This document shows, piece by piece, positions 16,422 to 21,594 of a stretch of DNA of 24,374 bases. The stretch is taken from positions 1 through 24,374 of the IMG/VR virus record IMGVR_UViG_3300042434_000066. One strand, 5' to 3'. Source of the DNA: a virus. Numbering within the stretch: position 1 is the stretch's first letter; each line of letters begins with the position of its first letter. A program made the translations under genes and the position numbers. The notes under the pieces are model-generated. The model did no database searches, was not told the DNA's origin, and was given only the letters and a program-made list of their open reading frames with translations.

Positions 16422-16561
16422 AGGTGCTGCTGATCTGGGTGGGCTATACTCACCTGTGGATCGACGGACGCATGGTATTTGTCAAGATTTGTAGGTATAC
16501 TGCGGACGTGGCGCTGGCGGTTCATCCGCTCTACCCATGCCCGCCGTTCTGGAGTTTGTGA
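16418..16561 (+). CDS. 47-residue GTG-start protein with hydrophobic N-terminus
   Basis: The ORF begins with GTG 16418 inside the previous stop (GTGA), encodes VKVLLIWVGYTHLWIDGRMV and so on, and ends at a TGA that overlaps ATG 16561 (TGATG). It exactly fills a gap that otherwise has no gene. Third positions are mostly G or C. The hydrophobic first 14 residues suggest a membrane or export segment, and there are two Cys (C25, C41). The ribosome site is weak, so translation probably depends on coupling. Function is unknown. Confidence 0.5.
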   Translation: MKVLLIWVGYTHLWIDGRMVFVKICRYTADVALAVHPLYPCPPFWSL

Positions 16562-17052
16562 TGTTCGACCCAGTTTCCATTGGAATGGCTGTCAGCATCG
16601 GCAGCAAGGCGTTTGGCCTGCTAAAGCAGGGCATCGCCGCTGGCCGTGAAATTCAGGACATGGCTTCTCAACTATCCGAATGGGGCAAGGCCGTCTCCGA
16701 CATTGCTTACGCTGCGGAAAAAGCCAACGAGCCTCCCGGCGTATTCAAGACGCTGTTCGGCGGCGATACTCAAAAAAGCGCTATCGACATATTTGCTGCG
16801 CAAAAGCAGTGCGAACAGCAGCGCAAGGAGTTGCGCCAGCTTATAAGTTACACATACGGGAACGACGCTTGGCTGGATTTCCAGAACATCGAGCGCCGGG
16901 TTCGGGAGCAGCAGAGAGAACAGGTTTATCGTCGCCGCGAGATCATCGAGTCGATCATGGAATTTTTACTGTGGTCTGGTATAATCTTAGTGACCGTGGC
17001 GCTGTCTGGCGTCGGCCTCTATTTCTGGGGCGTTTATCTGGGGAGGTGGTAG
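16561..17052 (+). CDS. C-terminally membrane-anchored helical protein, unknown
   Basis: A 163-residue protein starting MFDPVSIGMAVSIGSKAFGL. The start at 16561 is chosen because it abuts the preceding ORF (TGATG) and because MFDPV is the usual beginning of similar proteins I remember; an in-frame ATG at 16537 is less likely. The middle is a helical, charged region (QCEQQRKELRQLISYTYG, RRVREQQREQVYRRREIIE), and the C-terminus holds one membrane helix (LLWSGIILVTVALSGVGLYF, about residues 136-158). Position in the lysis block suggests a membrane-linked late function. No enzymatic motif was seen. Confidence 0.8.
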   Translation: MFDPVSIGMAVSIGSKAFGLLKQGIAAGREIQDMASQLSEWGKAVSDIAYAAEKANEPPGVFKTLFGGDTQKSAIDIFAAQKQCEQQRKELRQLISYTYGNDAWLDFQNIERRVREQQREQVYRRREIIESIMEFLLWSGIILVTVALSGVGLYFWGVYLGRW

Positions 17053-17053
17053 A

Positions 17054-17239
17054 ATGCTAGAGAAGATTATTTGGGCAGTCGCCGCTGCTTCTGTTGTGAC
17101 AATCATCTATTTTTCTGGTGACGGGTTCTATCGTTACCCATGCCAAGACCCAGTCAACTGGTCTGCCTTGGAATGTCAGCCACCTATTTGCCTTCGCACT
17201 AGGAACTGTGCGACTGATCTAACGGGAGCCTCGCAATGA
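17054..17239 (+). CDS. Small exported or anchored Cys-containing protein
   Basis: A 61-residue protein with an N-terminal hydrophobic segment (residues 4-20, KIIWAVAAASVVTIIYF) and a short outside domain with four Cys in the order YPCQDP, LECQPP, ICLRT, NCATDL. The YPCQDP.NW...EC.PPIC.....C pattern is familiar from small proteins in cyanophage-like genomes. Spacing suggests two disulfides in the periplasm. GGGAGGTGG before the ATG is a strong ribosome site. It overlaps the next gene by ATGA. It could be a spanin-like or superinfection-related factor; no function is established. Confidence 0.75.
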   Translation: MLEKIIWAVAAASVVTIIYFSGDGFYRYPCQDPVNWSALECQPPICLRTRNCATDLTGASQ

Positions 17240-17520
17240 GCAAAAACGATCCTGACTATCTGGAAGCTAAGCTTCGCTACTTCATCGGCTGCTCGCTGGT
17301 GGTGATCTTGGCAGGCACCATCTTCACCATCCTCTACAGCCTCGTCTTCGTGACCCAGCCTCTTGGCGAGTCGAGCGAGAACGACCGCAAGTTTTTTGAG
17401 TTACTAACTCCAATTGCCTCGTTCATTGTTGGCGCTCTTGGCGGCGTCATGGCAGCAGGCAACAATCGCAACAAGGGTGGCAATGACGAGCCGCCAGCAC
17501 CACAGGAGTATACCGAATGA
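17236..17520 (+). CDS. Two-helix membrane protein, holin candidate
   Basis: A 94-residue protein with two membrane segments (about 15-37, YFIGCSLVVILAGTIFTILY; and 55-76, ELLTPIASFIVGALGGVMAA) and a charged C-terminal tail (NNRNKGGNDEPPAPQ). Size and two-helix design suit a class II holin, which would form the pore or lesion that frees the endolysin. It lies about 640 nt upstream of the endolysin and is coupled by ATGA to genes on both sides. There is no direct motif for holins, so other small membrane proteins in this cassette remain candidates. Confidence 0.65.
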   Translation: MSKNDPDYLEAKLRYFIGCSLVVILAGTIFTILYSLVFVTQPLGESSENDRKFFELLTPIASFIVGALGGVMAAGNNRNKGGNDEPPAPQEYTE

Positions 17521-17747
17521 TCGGACGCATGATTGGAATGTTTATTGGCCGCAAGGCTAAGGCGAAAGTCGTTGACGCAGTGCTGGACAAGGTGAACCTG
17601 CCTGACCCGGTGGAGAACGCAATCAAGGTTGCGGCCACTGGCAACGTCGGCGACCTGCTCGGCGGCATGGGCAAGGACGTAGTCAAAGAGGAAGTCCTTG
17701 AGGCTGTGGTTAAAAAGAAAGTGCCGATCAAGAGACTCAAAAAATGA
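17517..17747 (+). CDS. 76-residue basic helical protein in lysis cassette
   Basis: Starts MIGRMIGMFIGRKAKAKVVD, giving an amphipathic first helix with basic residues, continues with NLPDPVENAIKVAATGNVGD and ends in a Lys-rich tail (VVKKKVPIKRLKK). The hydrophobic face of the N-terminal helix is too short and broken for a normal membrane span, but it could lie on the membrane. Coupled by ATGA to the holin candidate before it and to the nuclease after it. Family and role unknown. Confidence 0.75.
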   Translation: MIGRMIGMFIGRKAKAKVVDAVLDKVNLPDPVENAIKVAATGNVGDLLGGMGKDVVKEEVLEAVVKKKVPIKRLKK

Positions 17748-18151
17748 GGTGGCTTGTTGCCCTGCTCTTCTCAGCAACCCCTGCGCTTTCTACGCCCTAC
17801 GAGATCACTCGGGTCATCGACGGCGATACGGTGGAGATTGCGGTGGATTTTCTCCCATCGCCCCTCCCGCCAAAGCTATCCATCAGGGTCATGGGTATCG
17901 ACACGCCTGAAAAAGCCCCTCGCGCACAGTGCGATGCCGAGGCAGCCCTAGCAAAGAAGGCCAGCGCGTTTACAAAAGACGCCGTGGCCAACGCCCTCGA
18001 GGTCGATGTCAAAATCCTCAAGTGGGATAAGTACGGTGGCCGGGTGCTGGGCGAGGTTTATCTGGACCACCAGAGCCTTGCCCAAAGCCTGATCTCTGCG
18101 GGCCTAGCCCGTCCATACAAAGGCGAGGCCAAGTCCTCGTGGTGCGAATAG
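17744..18151 (+). CDS. Secreted staphylococcal-type nuclease (thermonuclease-like)
   Basis: A calcium-dependent endonuclease-type protein of 135 residues that would cut DNA or RNA. A signal peptide is visible (MRWLVALLFSATPALS, cleavage near residue 16-17). The SNase fold motifs are all present: RVIDGDTVEI (23-32), IRVMGIDTPEK (47-57), DKYGGRVLGEV (95-105) and ISAGLARPYKG (117-127). The catalytic trio of the family (Arg35, Glu43, Arg87 in the staphylococcal enzyme) corresponds to R48, E56 and R100, and the metal-site Asp is kept, so it should be active. Coupled by ATGA to the gene before it, and 10 nt ahead of the endolysin. A periplasmic or extracellular site of action is inferred from the signal peptide. 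Confidence 0.9.
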   Translation: MRWLVALLFSATPALSTPYEITRVIDGDTVEIAVDFLPSPLPPKLSIRVMGIDTPEKAPRAQCDAEAALAKKASAFTKDAVANALEVDVKILKWDKYGGRVLGEVYLDHQSLAQSLISAGLARPYKGEAKSSWCE

Positions 18152-18161
18152 GAGCCTATAG

Positions 18162-19022
18162 ATGAGCCTGATTACCGTAGACCAGCTGCGTGCCATGATC
18201 CCCACCAACAAAGAGGTCGAGGCTTGGTGCGAGGAGCTGAACAAGGCGCTGCCTAAGTACGACATCACCACCGACCAGCGGATCGCTGGCTTTATCAGCC
18301 AGTGCGCTCATGAGAGCATGGACTTCCGCGTCTTGCAGGAGAACCTGAACTACAAAGAGGCCACCCTCCTGAAGGTCTTCCCCCGCTACTTCGGCCCCGG
18401 CAAGGAGAACGCCGCCGAGTACGCAGGCAAACCCGAGAAGATCGCCAACTATGTGTACATGGATAAGAACCGCTCCAAGGGCGGCGCTCTTGGAAATGTG
18501 AAGGATGGCGACGGGTGGCTTTTTTCCGGAAAAGGTCTGAAGCAGGTAACTGGCCGTGCGAATACGACGGCCTTTGGAAAGACCGTTGGCATGACCGCAG
18601 AGGAAGCCGCTGCTTACCTTCTGACCAAGAAGGGCGCGCTTGAGAGCGCACTGTGGTTCTGGGGCAGCCGTAACCTGAACGAGGTCGCAGACACGGGCGA
18701 CCAAGTGCGGCTGACCAAGATCATCAACGGCGGCGACATTGGCTTGGCTGACCGTCAGGCGCGCTATGCTAAGGCTATGGCGGCATTGGGTGGCAAGATC
18801 ACTGTCCCTGTCAATCCGCAGATCACCGACGCCGTAACGCAGACGCTGCGCCGTGGCTCTAAGGGTGACAACGTAAAGAAAATGCAGGCCAAGCTGGGCT
18901 TGTCGGCCGACGGGGACTTCGGTCCCGGCACTGAGGCCGCACTCAAGAAATGGCAGACTGCAAACGGACTTACCGCCGACGGCGTAGCCGGCCCAAAAAC
19001 ATTGGCTAAACTGCTCGGGTGA
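18162..19022 (+). CDS. Endolysin: GH19 muramidase/chitinase-like with PG-binding domain
   Basis: Peptidoglycan-degrading lysis enzyme of 286 residues. Residues about 1-215 form a GH19-type catalytic domain with the helix containing SQCAHES (E51 as probable general acid) and the substrate-groove motif GDGWLFSGKGLKQVTGRANT (116-135). Residues 226-286 are a PG_binding_1 domain (RRGSKGDNVKKMQAKLGLSA, GDFGPGTEAALKKWQ, ADGVAGPKTLAKLL). There is no signal peptide, so a holin is expected to release it. GGAG lies 7 nt before ATG 18162. The domain order (catalytic first, binding last) is common in Gram-negative phages, though binding domains are often N-terminal there. Confidence 0.93.
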   Translation: MSLITVDQLRAMIPTNKEVEAWCEELNKALPKYDITTDQRIAGFISQCAHESMDFRVLQENLNYKEATLLKVFPRYFGPGKENAAEYAGKPEKIANYVYMDKNRSKGGALGNVKDGDGWLFSGKGLKQVTGRANTTAFGKTVGMTAEEAAAYLLTKKGALESALWFWGSRNLNEVADTGDQVRLTKIINGGDIGLADRQARYAKAMAALGGKITVPVNPQITDAVTQTLRRGSKGDNVKKMQAKLGLSADGDFGPGTEAALKKWQTANGLTADGVAGPKTLAKLLG

Positions 19023-19057: not shown

Positions 19058-19159
19058 ATGAAAGCGCCGATGCCTAAGTTTAAGCCCTGCCCGGGCTGCC
19101 CCAACCCCAAGAAGTGCACCGCCATGGGCAAGTGCATGAAGAAGGCCGCTAAGAAGTGA
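19058..19159 (+). CDS. 33-residue four-cysteine mini-protein
   Basis: Encodes MKAPMPKFKPCPGCPNPKKC and then TAMGKCMKKAAKK, with Cys at 11, 14, 20 and 26. The CPxC...C...C spacing could bind zinc or form two disulfides, and both ends are Lys-rich. GGAG (19046-19049) is 8 nt before ATG 19058, and the stop overlaps the GTG start of the tail nozzle gene (GTGA). Similar tiny Cys/Lys proteins occur in other aquatic phages as I recall. There is no signal peptide. Function is unknown; coupling could also set nozzle expression. Confidence 0.7.
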   Translation: MKAPMPKFKPCPGCPNPKKCTAMGKCMKKAAKK

Positions 19160-21594
19160 CAACGACTAAGATCGCCGAGTTCAAGGGTACGCTTCCGCGT
19201 GTCTCCCCGGAGTTACTTCCGGGGACTGCAGCGCAGATTGCACGCGATGTTAAACTCTACTCTGGCGATCTTATCCCTATCCCTGAACCCGTGGTCTACG
19301 CAAACGCCGAACGTACCGGTGTGCTGCGCACGCTCTATGCACTGCGTGATCCGGACACGGACGAACTCAAGTGGCTGACATGGGCCAACGAGATCGACAT
19401 TGTCACGCCTGCCGCGGATGAACTTGCCGAGCAGCGGTTCTACTTTACGGGCGACGGCAAACCCAAGGTCAGCACCTACGCTCTGGCAACAGCCGGTCTC
19501 GAACCGTACCCAGCCATTGGTGGGTACTACGATCTGGGGCTTCCGCTGCCCACGACGACAACCACGGCCACACCCACGTCATTCTCCACGGTCACGTCGG
19601 CGAGCTTCGCCCGCGACGGAGGCGGAAACGTCACTTTGGTGACGGCAACGTCGCACAACCTCAAGGATGGCGCTCTTATCACCGTGTCCGGGTTCTCTTA
19701 CCGCACGGGCACATACGCCCGAGTTGGCACGACGATCACCGTCACGATCAATAACCATGGGCTTGTGACTGGCACGCGCATCTACATTGAGTTCACCACT
19801 GGTGGTGCGACAACCAACTCCTACACAGTCACAGTGACCGGCACCAACACCTTTACAGTTATCGACACCGTGTCCGGCGCCGCAACCGGCGACTGCCGTT
19901 GGGACATTCGAGACCTTAACATCACCACGACGGCTACAGTCATCAACCCCACCACGCTGACCTACTTTTCTCCCGGGGCACAGGTGGCTACGACCACTAG
20001 CTCGGATGGTAAGGTCGATCTTGGCGGGCTGGTCCAGTCCCGCAACTACCTCTACACGTGGTACACTCCGTGGGACGAGGAGTCGATCGGCTCGGAGCCA
20101 TCGACGGCGATCTTCATCAAGGAAGGTCAGATCGTTACTGTCAGCGGTCTCCCGACCGCACCACCGGCCGGTGACAACTTCATCCGTGGTATCCGCCTCT
20201 ACCGCACTGTGGCTTCAACTTCGCAGACTCTGGACGCGGACTACTTCCGGCTCGCCACCATGTGGTTCCCACAGGCCATTGCCTCCGTTGCCCGGACAGG
20301 TGGCGTCGTCACGCTCAAGTTTGCAGAGCAGCACAAGTTCATTAAGGACGACCGCCTCAAGCTGGCAGGGTGCAGCGTCGCAGGCTTTGACATCACGGGC
20401 GCCGTAGTGACCGACGTGCCAGATCGGTTCACCATCACTTACGCGCAGGCAGGCACGGTAACGGCCACCACCGCGGCTACCGGCACGGTCTACTACGACA
20501 TCGCTGAAAACCCGCCAACGGACCCGGCGCGTTACTGGGGCGACGCGACATATGACTTCACCGATGACTTCAACTTCCGCAGCCTGCTCAACATCCTGAG
20601 TTCAAGTGACTACGACGCTCCGCCGGAAGACTTGCAGGGTGTGACAGTTATCCAGAACAGCATCATGGCCGGCTTTGTTGGCAACGACATCTACTTCACG
20701 GAACCGGGACAGTTTCATGCGTGGCCTGTAAAGTACAAGATTTCGCTGGAGTACAACATCGTTGGCATGGTTGCTCTTGGCAGCGACCTGTTGGTCATGA
20801 CAGAGGGGTTCCCCTACGTGATCTCGGGTTCGGACCCTGCGGTTCTCTCGACCACGCGCTATGCCACCAACTACCCGTGCCTCAGCAAGCGTAGCATCGT
20901 GCAGGCTGACGTTGGGGTTATGTACGCAACCCATGAGGGGTTGGCTCTTGCCTCGTTTGCCGGTGGTGTCCAGATTGCCACGGCGCCAGCCCATAGCCCT
21001 GATACTTGGAACGCTGCGCTCGATCCATCGACGATCGTTGGGGCGTTCTACGACAGCATGTACTTTGGCTCGCACAGCACCGGGTCGTTCTTCTACCGCC
21101 GCTCGCAGGATGGCCAGACGCCGGGTGACTTCGTTGACCACGAGCTTACCTTCACCGCCACATGGTTCGATCCGCTAACGGGTGCGCTCTACTACACGAC
21201 AGGCGACGATGGCGACATCGTCCGGTGGGATGACCCGGCGCAGCCCAATGCTGACTTTGCGTGGAAGTCCAAGGTCTTTATCTCGCAGGTGCCTTTCAAC
21301 ATGGGCGCAGCCCGAGTCGTTGCGGACTATACTGGGATTGCTGTATCGCCCATCTGGGGCGACTACGACGTTGAGTGGGGTAGCGCCGACGTAGACTGGT
21401 TTGTGTCAGAGCCGATTACGTTCAAGCTCTACGCCAACAAGAATCTGGTCCTCACCACAACGCGTAGTAACAGCGACGTGTTTAGACTTCCGGCCGGTTA
21501 TAAGACGGACACCTATGAAGTTGAGGTTGACGGTACTATACGCGTGCGAGCTATCCATCTGGGCGAAACGCCCTCATCGCTCACGAGGTCATAA
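19156..21594 (+). CDS. Tail nozzle / tail tubular protein B-like
   Basis: An 812-residue virion protein. The N-terminal GTLPRVSPELLPGTAAQIAR and the long strand-rich body with DIYFTEPGQFHAWP, GSDLLVMTEGFPYVISG, IVQADVGVMYATHEGLALAS and YYTTGDDGDIVRWDDP are typical of the beta-propeller nozzle proteins of short-tailed phages (T7 gp12 / P22 gp10 role). Three related small beta inserts occur near residues 158-185, 190-235 and 383-440. The start is GTG 19156, overlapping the previous stop; the ribosome site is weak, so coupling probably matters. The nozzle continues the neck and carries spikes and fibres. Confidence 0.85.
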   Translation: MTTTKIAEFKGTLPRVSPELLPGTAAQIARDVKLYSGDLIPIPEPVVYANAERTGVLRTLYALRDPDTDELKWLTWANEIDIVTPAADELAEQRFYFTGDGKPKVSTYALATAGLEPYPAIGGYYDLGLPLPTTTTTATPTSFSTVTSASFARDGGGNVTLVTATSHNLKDGALITVSGFSYRTGTYARVGTTITVTINNHGLVTGTRIYIEFTTGGATTNSYTVTVTGTNTFTVIDTVSGAATGDCRWDIRDLNITTTATVINPTTLTYFSPGAQVATTTSSDGKVDLGGLVQSRNYLYTWYTPWDEESIGSEPSTAIFIKEGQIVTVSGLPTAPPAGDNFIRGIRLYRTVASTSQTLDADYFRLATMWFPQAIASVARTGGVVTLKFAEQHKFIKDDRLKLAGCSVAGFDITGAVVTDVPDRFTITYAQAGTVTATTAATGTVYYDIAENPPTDPARYWGDATYDFTDDFNFRSLLNILSSSDYDAPPEDLQGVTVIQNSIMAGFVGNDIYFTEPGQFHAWPVKYKISLEYNIVGMVALGSDLLVMTEGFPYVISGSDPAVLSTTRYATNYPCLSKRSIVQADVGVMYATHEGLALASFAGGVQIATAPAHSPDTWNAALDPSTIVGAFYDSMYFGSHSTGSFFYRRSQDGQTPGDFVDHELTFTATWFDPLTGALYYTTGDDGDIVRWDDPAQPNADFAWKSKVFISQVPFNMGAARVVADYTGIAVSPIWGDYDVEWGSADVDWFVSEPITFKLYANKNLVLTTTRSNSDVFRLPAGYKTDTYEVEVDGTIRVRAIHLGETPSSLTRS
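19627..20460 (+). repeat. Three related beta inserts within the nozzle gene
   Basis: Units with the pattern V.L.....H.L..G..I...G occur at about 19627-19700 (VTLVTATSHNLKDGALITVS), 19726-19860 (ITVTINNHGLVTGTRIYIEF) and 20302-20460 (VTLKFAEQHKFIKDDRLKLA). Only the pattern is shared, not long identities. They resemble the small add-on domains found in many marine phage tail proteins. Confidence 0.6.

Follow-up and report, generated by a model that had tools for sequence, protein, structure and literature searches.

A predicted exported SNase-family nuclease as an optional gene of a phage lysis operon

Introduction

Phage lysis is usually described in terms of a holin, an endolysin and a spanin only. 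In a 24,374-base virus record of IMG/VR, analysed here over its whole length and called the window below, a gene of the staphylococcal nuclease (SNase) family lies directly ahead of an endolysin gene. The locus raises the question of what a nuclease does in a lysis operon, and of whether it belongs to lysis at all.

In gene order, the window starts with terminase and portal genes, continues with capsid and tail genes and reaches the lysis cluster, followed by an internal virion protein. The features of the cluster that matter here are as follows.

16537-17052, plus strand: protein of 171 aa with a C-terminal hydrophobic segment (phrog_32327, unknown function; hydropathy).
17054-17239, plus strand: protein of 61 aa, four of them Cys, with a single hydrophobic segment at the N-terminus (hydropathy; sequence).
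17236-17520, plus strand: protein of 94 aa with two hydrophobic segments, candidate holin (hydropathy; phrog_25359, unknown function).
17517-17747, plus strand: small basic protein of 76 aa; conserved upstream of the SNase.
17744-17747, plus strand: ATGA, the 4-nt overlap of the SNase start with the upstream stop.
17744-18151, plus strand: predicted exported SNase-family nuclease, 135 aa and stop (Pfam, PHROGs, PDB sequence and fold matches; purifying selection).
17744-17791, plus strand: predicted signal peptide, codons 1-16, with likely cleavage after S16 (rule-based prediction with controls; alignments of relatives).
17930-17932, plus strand: codon of Cys63, first of a conserved pair.
18143-18145, plus strand: codon of Cys134, second of the pair, invariant in alignment A3.
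18149-18161, plus strand: SNase stop, AGGAG (18150-18154) resembling a ribosome-binding site, and the 10-nt gap to the endolysin.
18162-19022, plus strand: endolysin with a GH19/chitinase-like catalytic part (phrog_181, E 1.9e-66) and a PG_binding_1 domain (PF01471).

Results

The product of 17744-18151 is a member of the Pfam SNase family (PF00565; E 1.4e-12, 48.5 bits against a cut-off of 21) and matches the endonuclease family phrog_452 of PHROGs (E 4e-22). Its residues 17-123 align with the PDB sequence of Staphylococcus aureus nuclease, and its AlphaFold model (pLDDT 92.4) was matched to staphylococcal nuclease by Foldseek (E 1.4e-9, TM 0.66). Seven residues, D26, D28, R48, D53, T54, E56 and R100, pair in the alignment with active-site residues of the S. 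aureus enzyme, which we take to be D19, D21, R35, D40, T41, E43 and R87, in that order. D26, R48, D53, T54, E56, R100 and both cysteines are invariant in all 40 SNases of equal length (window included), and D28 is invariant in alignment A3. Judged by its residues and predicted fold, the protein would be a catalytically complete SNase; the initial annotation had described a complete domain with all catalytic positions, and the Pfam, alignment and fold matches agree with it. The gene is under strong purifying selection: the overall median dN/dS across the 40 equal-length sequences is 0.071. Taken by region it is 0.050 for the mature protein and 0.35 for the signal peptide, whose substitutions preserve hydrophobic character.

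The N-terminus, MRWLVALLFSATPALS followed by TPY, is consistent with a short Sec signal peptide. It was scored with a rule (n-, h- and c-region plus an AxA-like site) that, like the gene calls, was scripted for this analysis and is distinct from SignalP. The window SNase scores positive, as do 54 of 433 control ORFs. Among unique viral relatives the rule is satisfied by 74/74 at 70% identity or above and by 133/139 below 70%, and among cellular SNases by 55 of 79 (80 loci, one unscored). In the close relatives, taken from a scan that confirmed 180 and kept 80, the letters of the N-terminus vary while its signal character stays, and AxA or AxS precedes TPY, DQY or YEI. The cysteine pair is present in 74/74 and 138/139 of the same viral relatives and in 76/79 cellular ones. 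Neither the signal peptide nor the pair occurs in four SNases of cyanophages and methylophages, and a fifth phage SNase (L239, cysteines unscored) is negative under the rule, so in the phage SNases compared here the pair and the signal peptide appear to occur together. Given the signal-rule counts and the distribution of the cysteines, export looks like a conserved feature of the viral SNase family, in line with the clear signal peptide noted in the initial annotation. The Cys63-Cys134 pair fits an oxidising compartment, in which it may form a disulfide.

The genes at 17054-17239, 17236-17520 and 17517-17747 and the SNase gene are linked in a chain by 4-nt overlaps, and the AGGAG ahead of the endolysin starts inside the SNase stop codon. 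The SNase retains both couplings, since 72 of 74 relatives begin with ATGA or GTGA and 67 of 74 have GGAG at the stop. The 10-nt distance to the endolysin, given in the initial annotation, is confirmed by the sequence. That annotation also spoke of coupling to holin-like genes; the coupling stands, through the 4-nt ATGA overlap, and the holin-like character is only plausible. The 17236-17520 product matched no known holin family in Pfam, PHROGs or a further family search, and with two hydrophobic segments as its one holin-like trait its identification as a holin was dropped. Downstream, a Peptidase_S9 match of 19156-21594 lies below its cut-off and was set aside for the better name, internal virion protein (phrog_511).

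How often such a nuclease lies beside an endolysin, a point raised by the initial annotation, is readily answered for the close relatives. An endolysin homologue directly follows the SNase in 78 of 80 close loci, and the other two contigs stop 51 and 21 bases downstream; 5 of the 78 have as endolysin another GH19-like enzyme, of weak similarity. A pooled set comprised 213 SNases unique in their DNA, near-copies remaining, with 300 of its 301 loci placed. An endolysin was found no more than 150 bp away in 64/66 at 85% identity or above, 8/8 at 70-85% and 11/139 below 70%, counts that cover three reference types of endolysin, miss others and include loci cut by contig ends. Three of the 11 distant loci (L173, L252 and L253) belong to the same cassette as the window. 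In the other eight a wall hydrolase, in at least two cases of Hydrolase_2 type, sits just before the SNase, and this is a separate pairing. Frames L206:4303-4926 and L250:191-709, on distant viral contigs, are Hydrolase_2 (SleB-type) proteins with a signal-like N-terminus of their own, immediately before an exported-type SNase.

The surroundings of the cassette vary: in the 47 loci scored out of 76, the downstream genes fall into 18 families. The largest accounts for 23 loci, and the 13 families with a single member may represent various genes from one and the same setting. Many of the loci L002-L081 carry about 2 kb of extra DNA between the homologues of 16537-17052 and 17054-17239, and other relatives have about 220 nt between the homologues of the 17236 and 17517 genes.

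The presence of the SNase was also surveyed from its neighbours, on loci that are partly the same as those of the close SNase scan. Among the matches listed for the endolysin (80 of 201 relatives), the SNase lies upstream in 49 and is absent in 29, and 2 are too short; among those listed for 17236-17520 (80 of 303), 66 have it, 11 lack it and 3 are too short. In 27 of the 29 SNase-free endolysin loci, an overlap of 4 nt joins the homologue of 17517-17747 straight to the endolysin start. On an endolysin tree of 81 rows including the window (49 with SNase, 29 without, 3 undecided), presence changes at least 8 times and parsimoniously 12 times, counts that may also reflect recombination. A core lysis gene would always accompany its endolysin; of the loci that can be read, 29 of 78 around the endolysin and 11 of 77 around the 17236 gene have no SNase. 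Lysis therefore has no need of the SNase, a core lysis function is rejected, and the nuclease is no integral part of lysis. The SNase is an optional plug-in of the lysis operon. In two SNase-free loci (L471:2531-2983 and L536:2549-3004) the endolysin is preceded by a different membrane protein of about 150 aa, holin-like in appearance.

In a tree built by a quick method on 119 columns, the viral exported-type SNases form one group of 68 rows (SH-aLRT 94, not starred), separate from 49 cellular rows, and the lysis-cassette SNases form a single starred group of 10 rows inside it (SH-aLRT 100). The exported-type SNase of Sulfurimonas phage SNW-1 is placed among the cellular sequences. The cellular loci kept, 80 in all and from Pseudomonadota, are 34-50% identical to the window SNase, the closest only 49-50%. 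With the viral sequences grouping apart and cellular identity this low, a recent capture from a host was rejected as a likely origin.

Distant relatives (below 70% identity) occur in other settings, with ribonucleotide reductase (RNR) genes within 2.5 kb of the SNase in 46 of 139 unique viral relatives and PhoH nearby in 13 of 139. NrdB was found in 16 of 50 whole records searched, and of the 15 records with both NrdB and an SNase match, 6 have the two within 350 bp, namely G018, G021, G022, G044, G048 and G049, some of which may be near relatives of each other. It was found in none of 19 lysis-cassette records (G001-G016, G037, G039 and W01), which may be fragments. For the initial annotation, relatives with the gene in an unrelated, early region would have spoken against its view; distant ones do lie near RNR or DNA polymerase genes, and they keep the signal peptide, so that this view is weakened in part only.

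Several records stood out in these searches. G035 gave no SNase match in the Pfam search, and three viral records (G030, G039 and G040, those of L229, L289 and L306) gave two each. A viral NrdA frame of 908 aa (L200:2210-4936) has an internal HNH endonuclease-like stretch, which suggests an intein or intron. L240 (PV200784.1, 21768-30058), named Staphylococcus phage ISU935, carries the S. aureus chromosomal genes vwb, emp, thermonuclease and cold-shock, and looks like host DNA labelled as phage. Terminase and capsid searches with the window found distant isolates only, namely Pseudomonas phage Rollin (45%) and Rhizobium phage RHph_TM3_14A (39% and 52%); in 49.0 of the 60.9 kb of the latter there was no significant SNase match (best E 0.1).

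Discussion

We tentatively favour, as quite possible, the reading that the SNase is a periplasmic, probably Ca2+-dependent nuclease that destroys extracytoplasmic DNA, most likely in the lysate, and that its gene is an accessory of a mobile lysis operon. Its translation would be coupled to that of the neighbouring genes, late in infection, and the protein would be exported via the Sec pathway and cleaved after residue 16. The mature enzyme would fold in the periplasm, where C63 and C134 would probably form a disulfide and the Ca2+ that SNases require would be supplied; phage DNA in the cytoplasm would stay safe. Once the endolysin opened the wall, the SNase would meet leftover host nucleic acids and digest the DNA outside virions, most likely freeing progeny from DNA tangles and cutting viscosity. 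According to a preprint, homogenates were less viscous when S. aureus nuclease in the periplasm was combined with the lysis genes of lambda (PMC10055543). The function is nevertheless dispensable, as the SNase-free loci with the same endolysin indicate, and this counts against the lysate reading.

Before lysis, a periplasmic SNase would also attack foreign DNA in transit. Superinfection exclusion, in which the enzyme cuts the DNA of competing phages (or plasmids) while it crosses the periplasm, is to our mind rather doubtful. Export is the feature retained across genomic settings, and the patchy presence, for which the endolysin tree implies 12 gains or losses, suits a gene of conflict. A lysis-operon gene among structural genes would, however, be switched on late, at a point where exclusion brings the least benefit, and in short-tailed phages the DNA passes through a protein channel. 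Lateness also weighs on nucleotide or phosphate scavenging, in which products of extracytoplasmic nucleic acid would feed the dNTP or phosphate pools, since a lysis gene would come too late for replication. The proximity of RNR genes to distant exported-type SNases, the short NrdB distances, the PhoH neighbours and the order nrdB-nrdA-x-SNase in a Rhizobium phage seem to fit nucleotide supply better than a role in the lysate, but NrdB was not found in the lysis-cassette records, and we consider scavenging unlikely for the window. The neighbouring RNR genes speak for scavenging in the distant relatives, and the lysis operon speaks for DNA clearance here; none of these roles suits every setting of the SNase well.

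That the gene is cargo taken from a host, doing nothing specific for the phage except altering the surroundings, for instance by breaking down biofilm DNA so that progeny spread, would agree with the commonness of secreted SNases in Pseudomonadota. We regard it as very unlikely, because the viral exported-type SNases form a group of their own. Least probable of all is an incidental N-terminus on an enzyme that degrades host DNA in the cytoplasm. The signal peptide of the window is short, with a single Arg, and signal-less phage SNases do exist (L085, L086, L237 and L238); yet the hydrophobic N-terminus and the AxA/AxS site persist despite changes of letters, and of the phage SNases compared only those of the exported type have the cysteine pair, so a cytoplasmic enzyme is already disfavoured on sequence grounds.

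A shade more tentatively than for the window itself, we suggest that exported SNases of viruses form a family of their own, present in several phage groups, and serve as an extracytoplasmic weapon or tool. In one branch the gene would have turned into a plug-in for a mobile lysis operon. Nuclease and endolysin would then be produced jointly, and DNA that escapes at lysis, or enters before it, would be destroyed.

The SNase fold, its secretion and its carriage by phages are each already known singly. A literature search of partial coverage turned up no publication that describes phage lysis operons with an exported SNase, and an exported family that is specific to viruses and optional in a mobile lysis operon may be new. 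The SNase is a case in which an accessory gene enters a tightly overlapped operon and brings its own start overlap and a ribosome site for the next gene. That lysis operons occur naturally both with an exported nuclease and lacking one makes its role testable, be it to aid progeny, to block rivals or to feed the cell.

The SNase resembles staphylococcal nuclease, of the same family (PF00565), in fold, active-site residues and secretion, and differs in being viral, in a shorter C-terminus, an extra Gly before the second active-site Arg and the Cys pair, and in its place in a phage operon. The cyanophage and methylophage proteins (P-HM2, ACG-2014i, S-TIM5 and Melnitz) share a phage-encoded SNase domain, but have no signal peptide or Cys pair and lie outside lysis genes. 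Much nearer is the SNase of Caudoviricetes sp. MW202675.1 (Manatee Spring), 73% identical, with a signal peptide, the endolysin next to it and the same small genes upstream, although of 14 window genes searched for in its 23.8 kb only the 17236 gene and the endolysin were matched. That genome was deposited as Myoviridae, and its annotated internal virion protein D and phage stabilization protein suggest a short-tailed phage. The SNases of Rhizobium phages RHph_TM and RHph_Y65 also have the signal peptide and the Cys pair (L083), but adjoin RNR, thyX and dUTPase genes instead of lysis genes. Streptococcal prophage DNases (streptodornases) are phage-borne secreted DNases beside lysis genes, in Gram-positive prophages and with an unrelated fold. 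The engineered combination of periplasmic NucA with the lambda lysis cassette (PMC10055543) likewise joins an exported SNase to lysis genes; that system is man-made, with the S. aureus enzyme and an OmpA signal.
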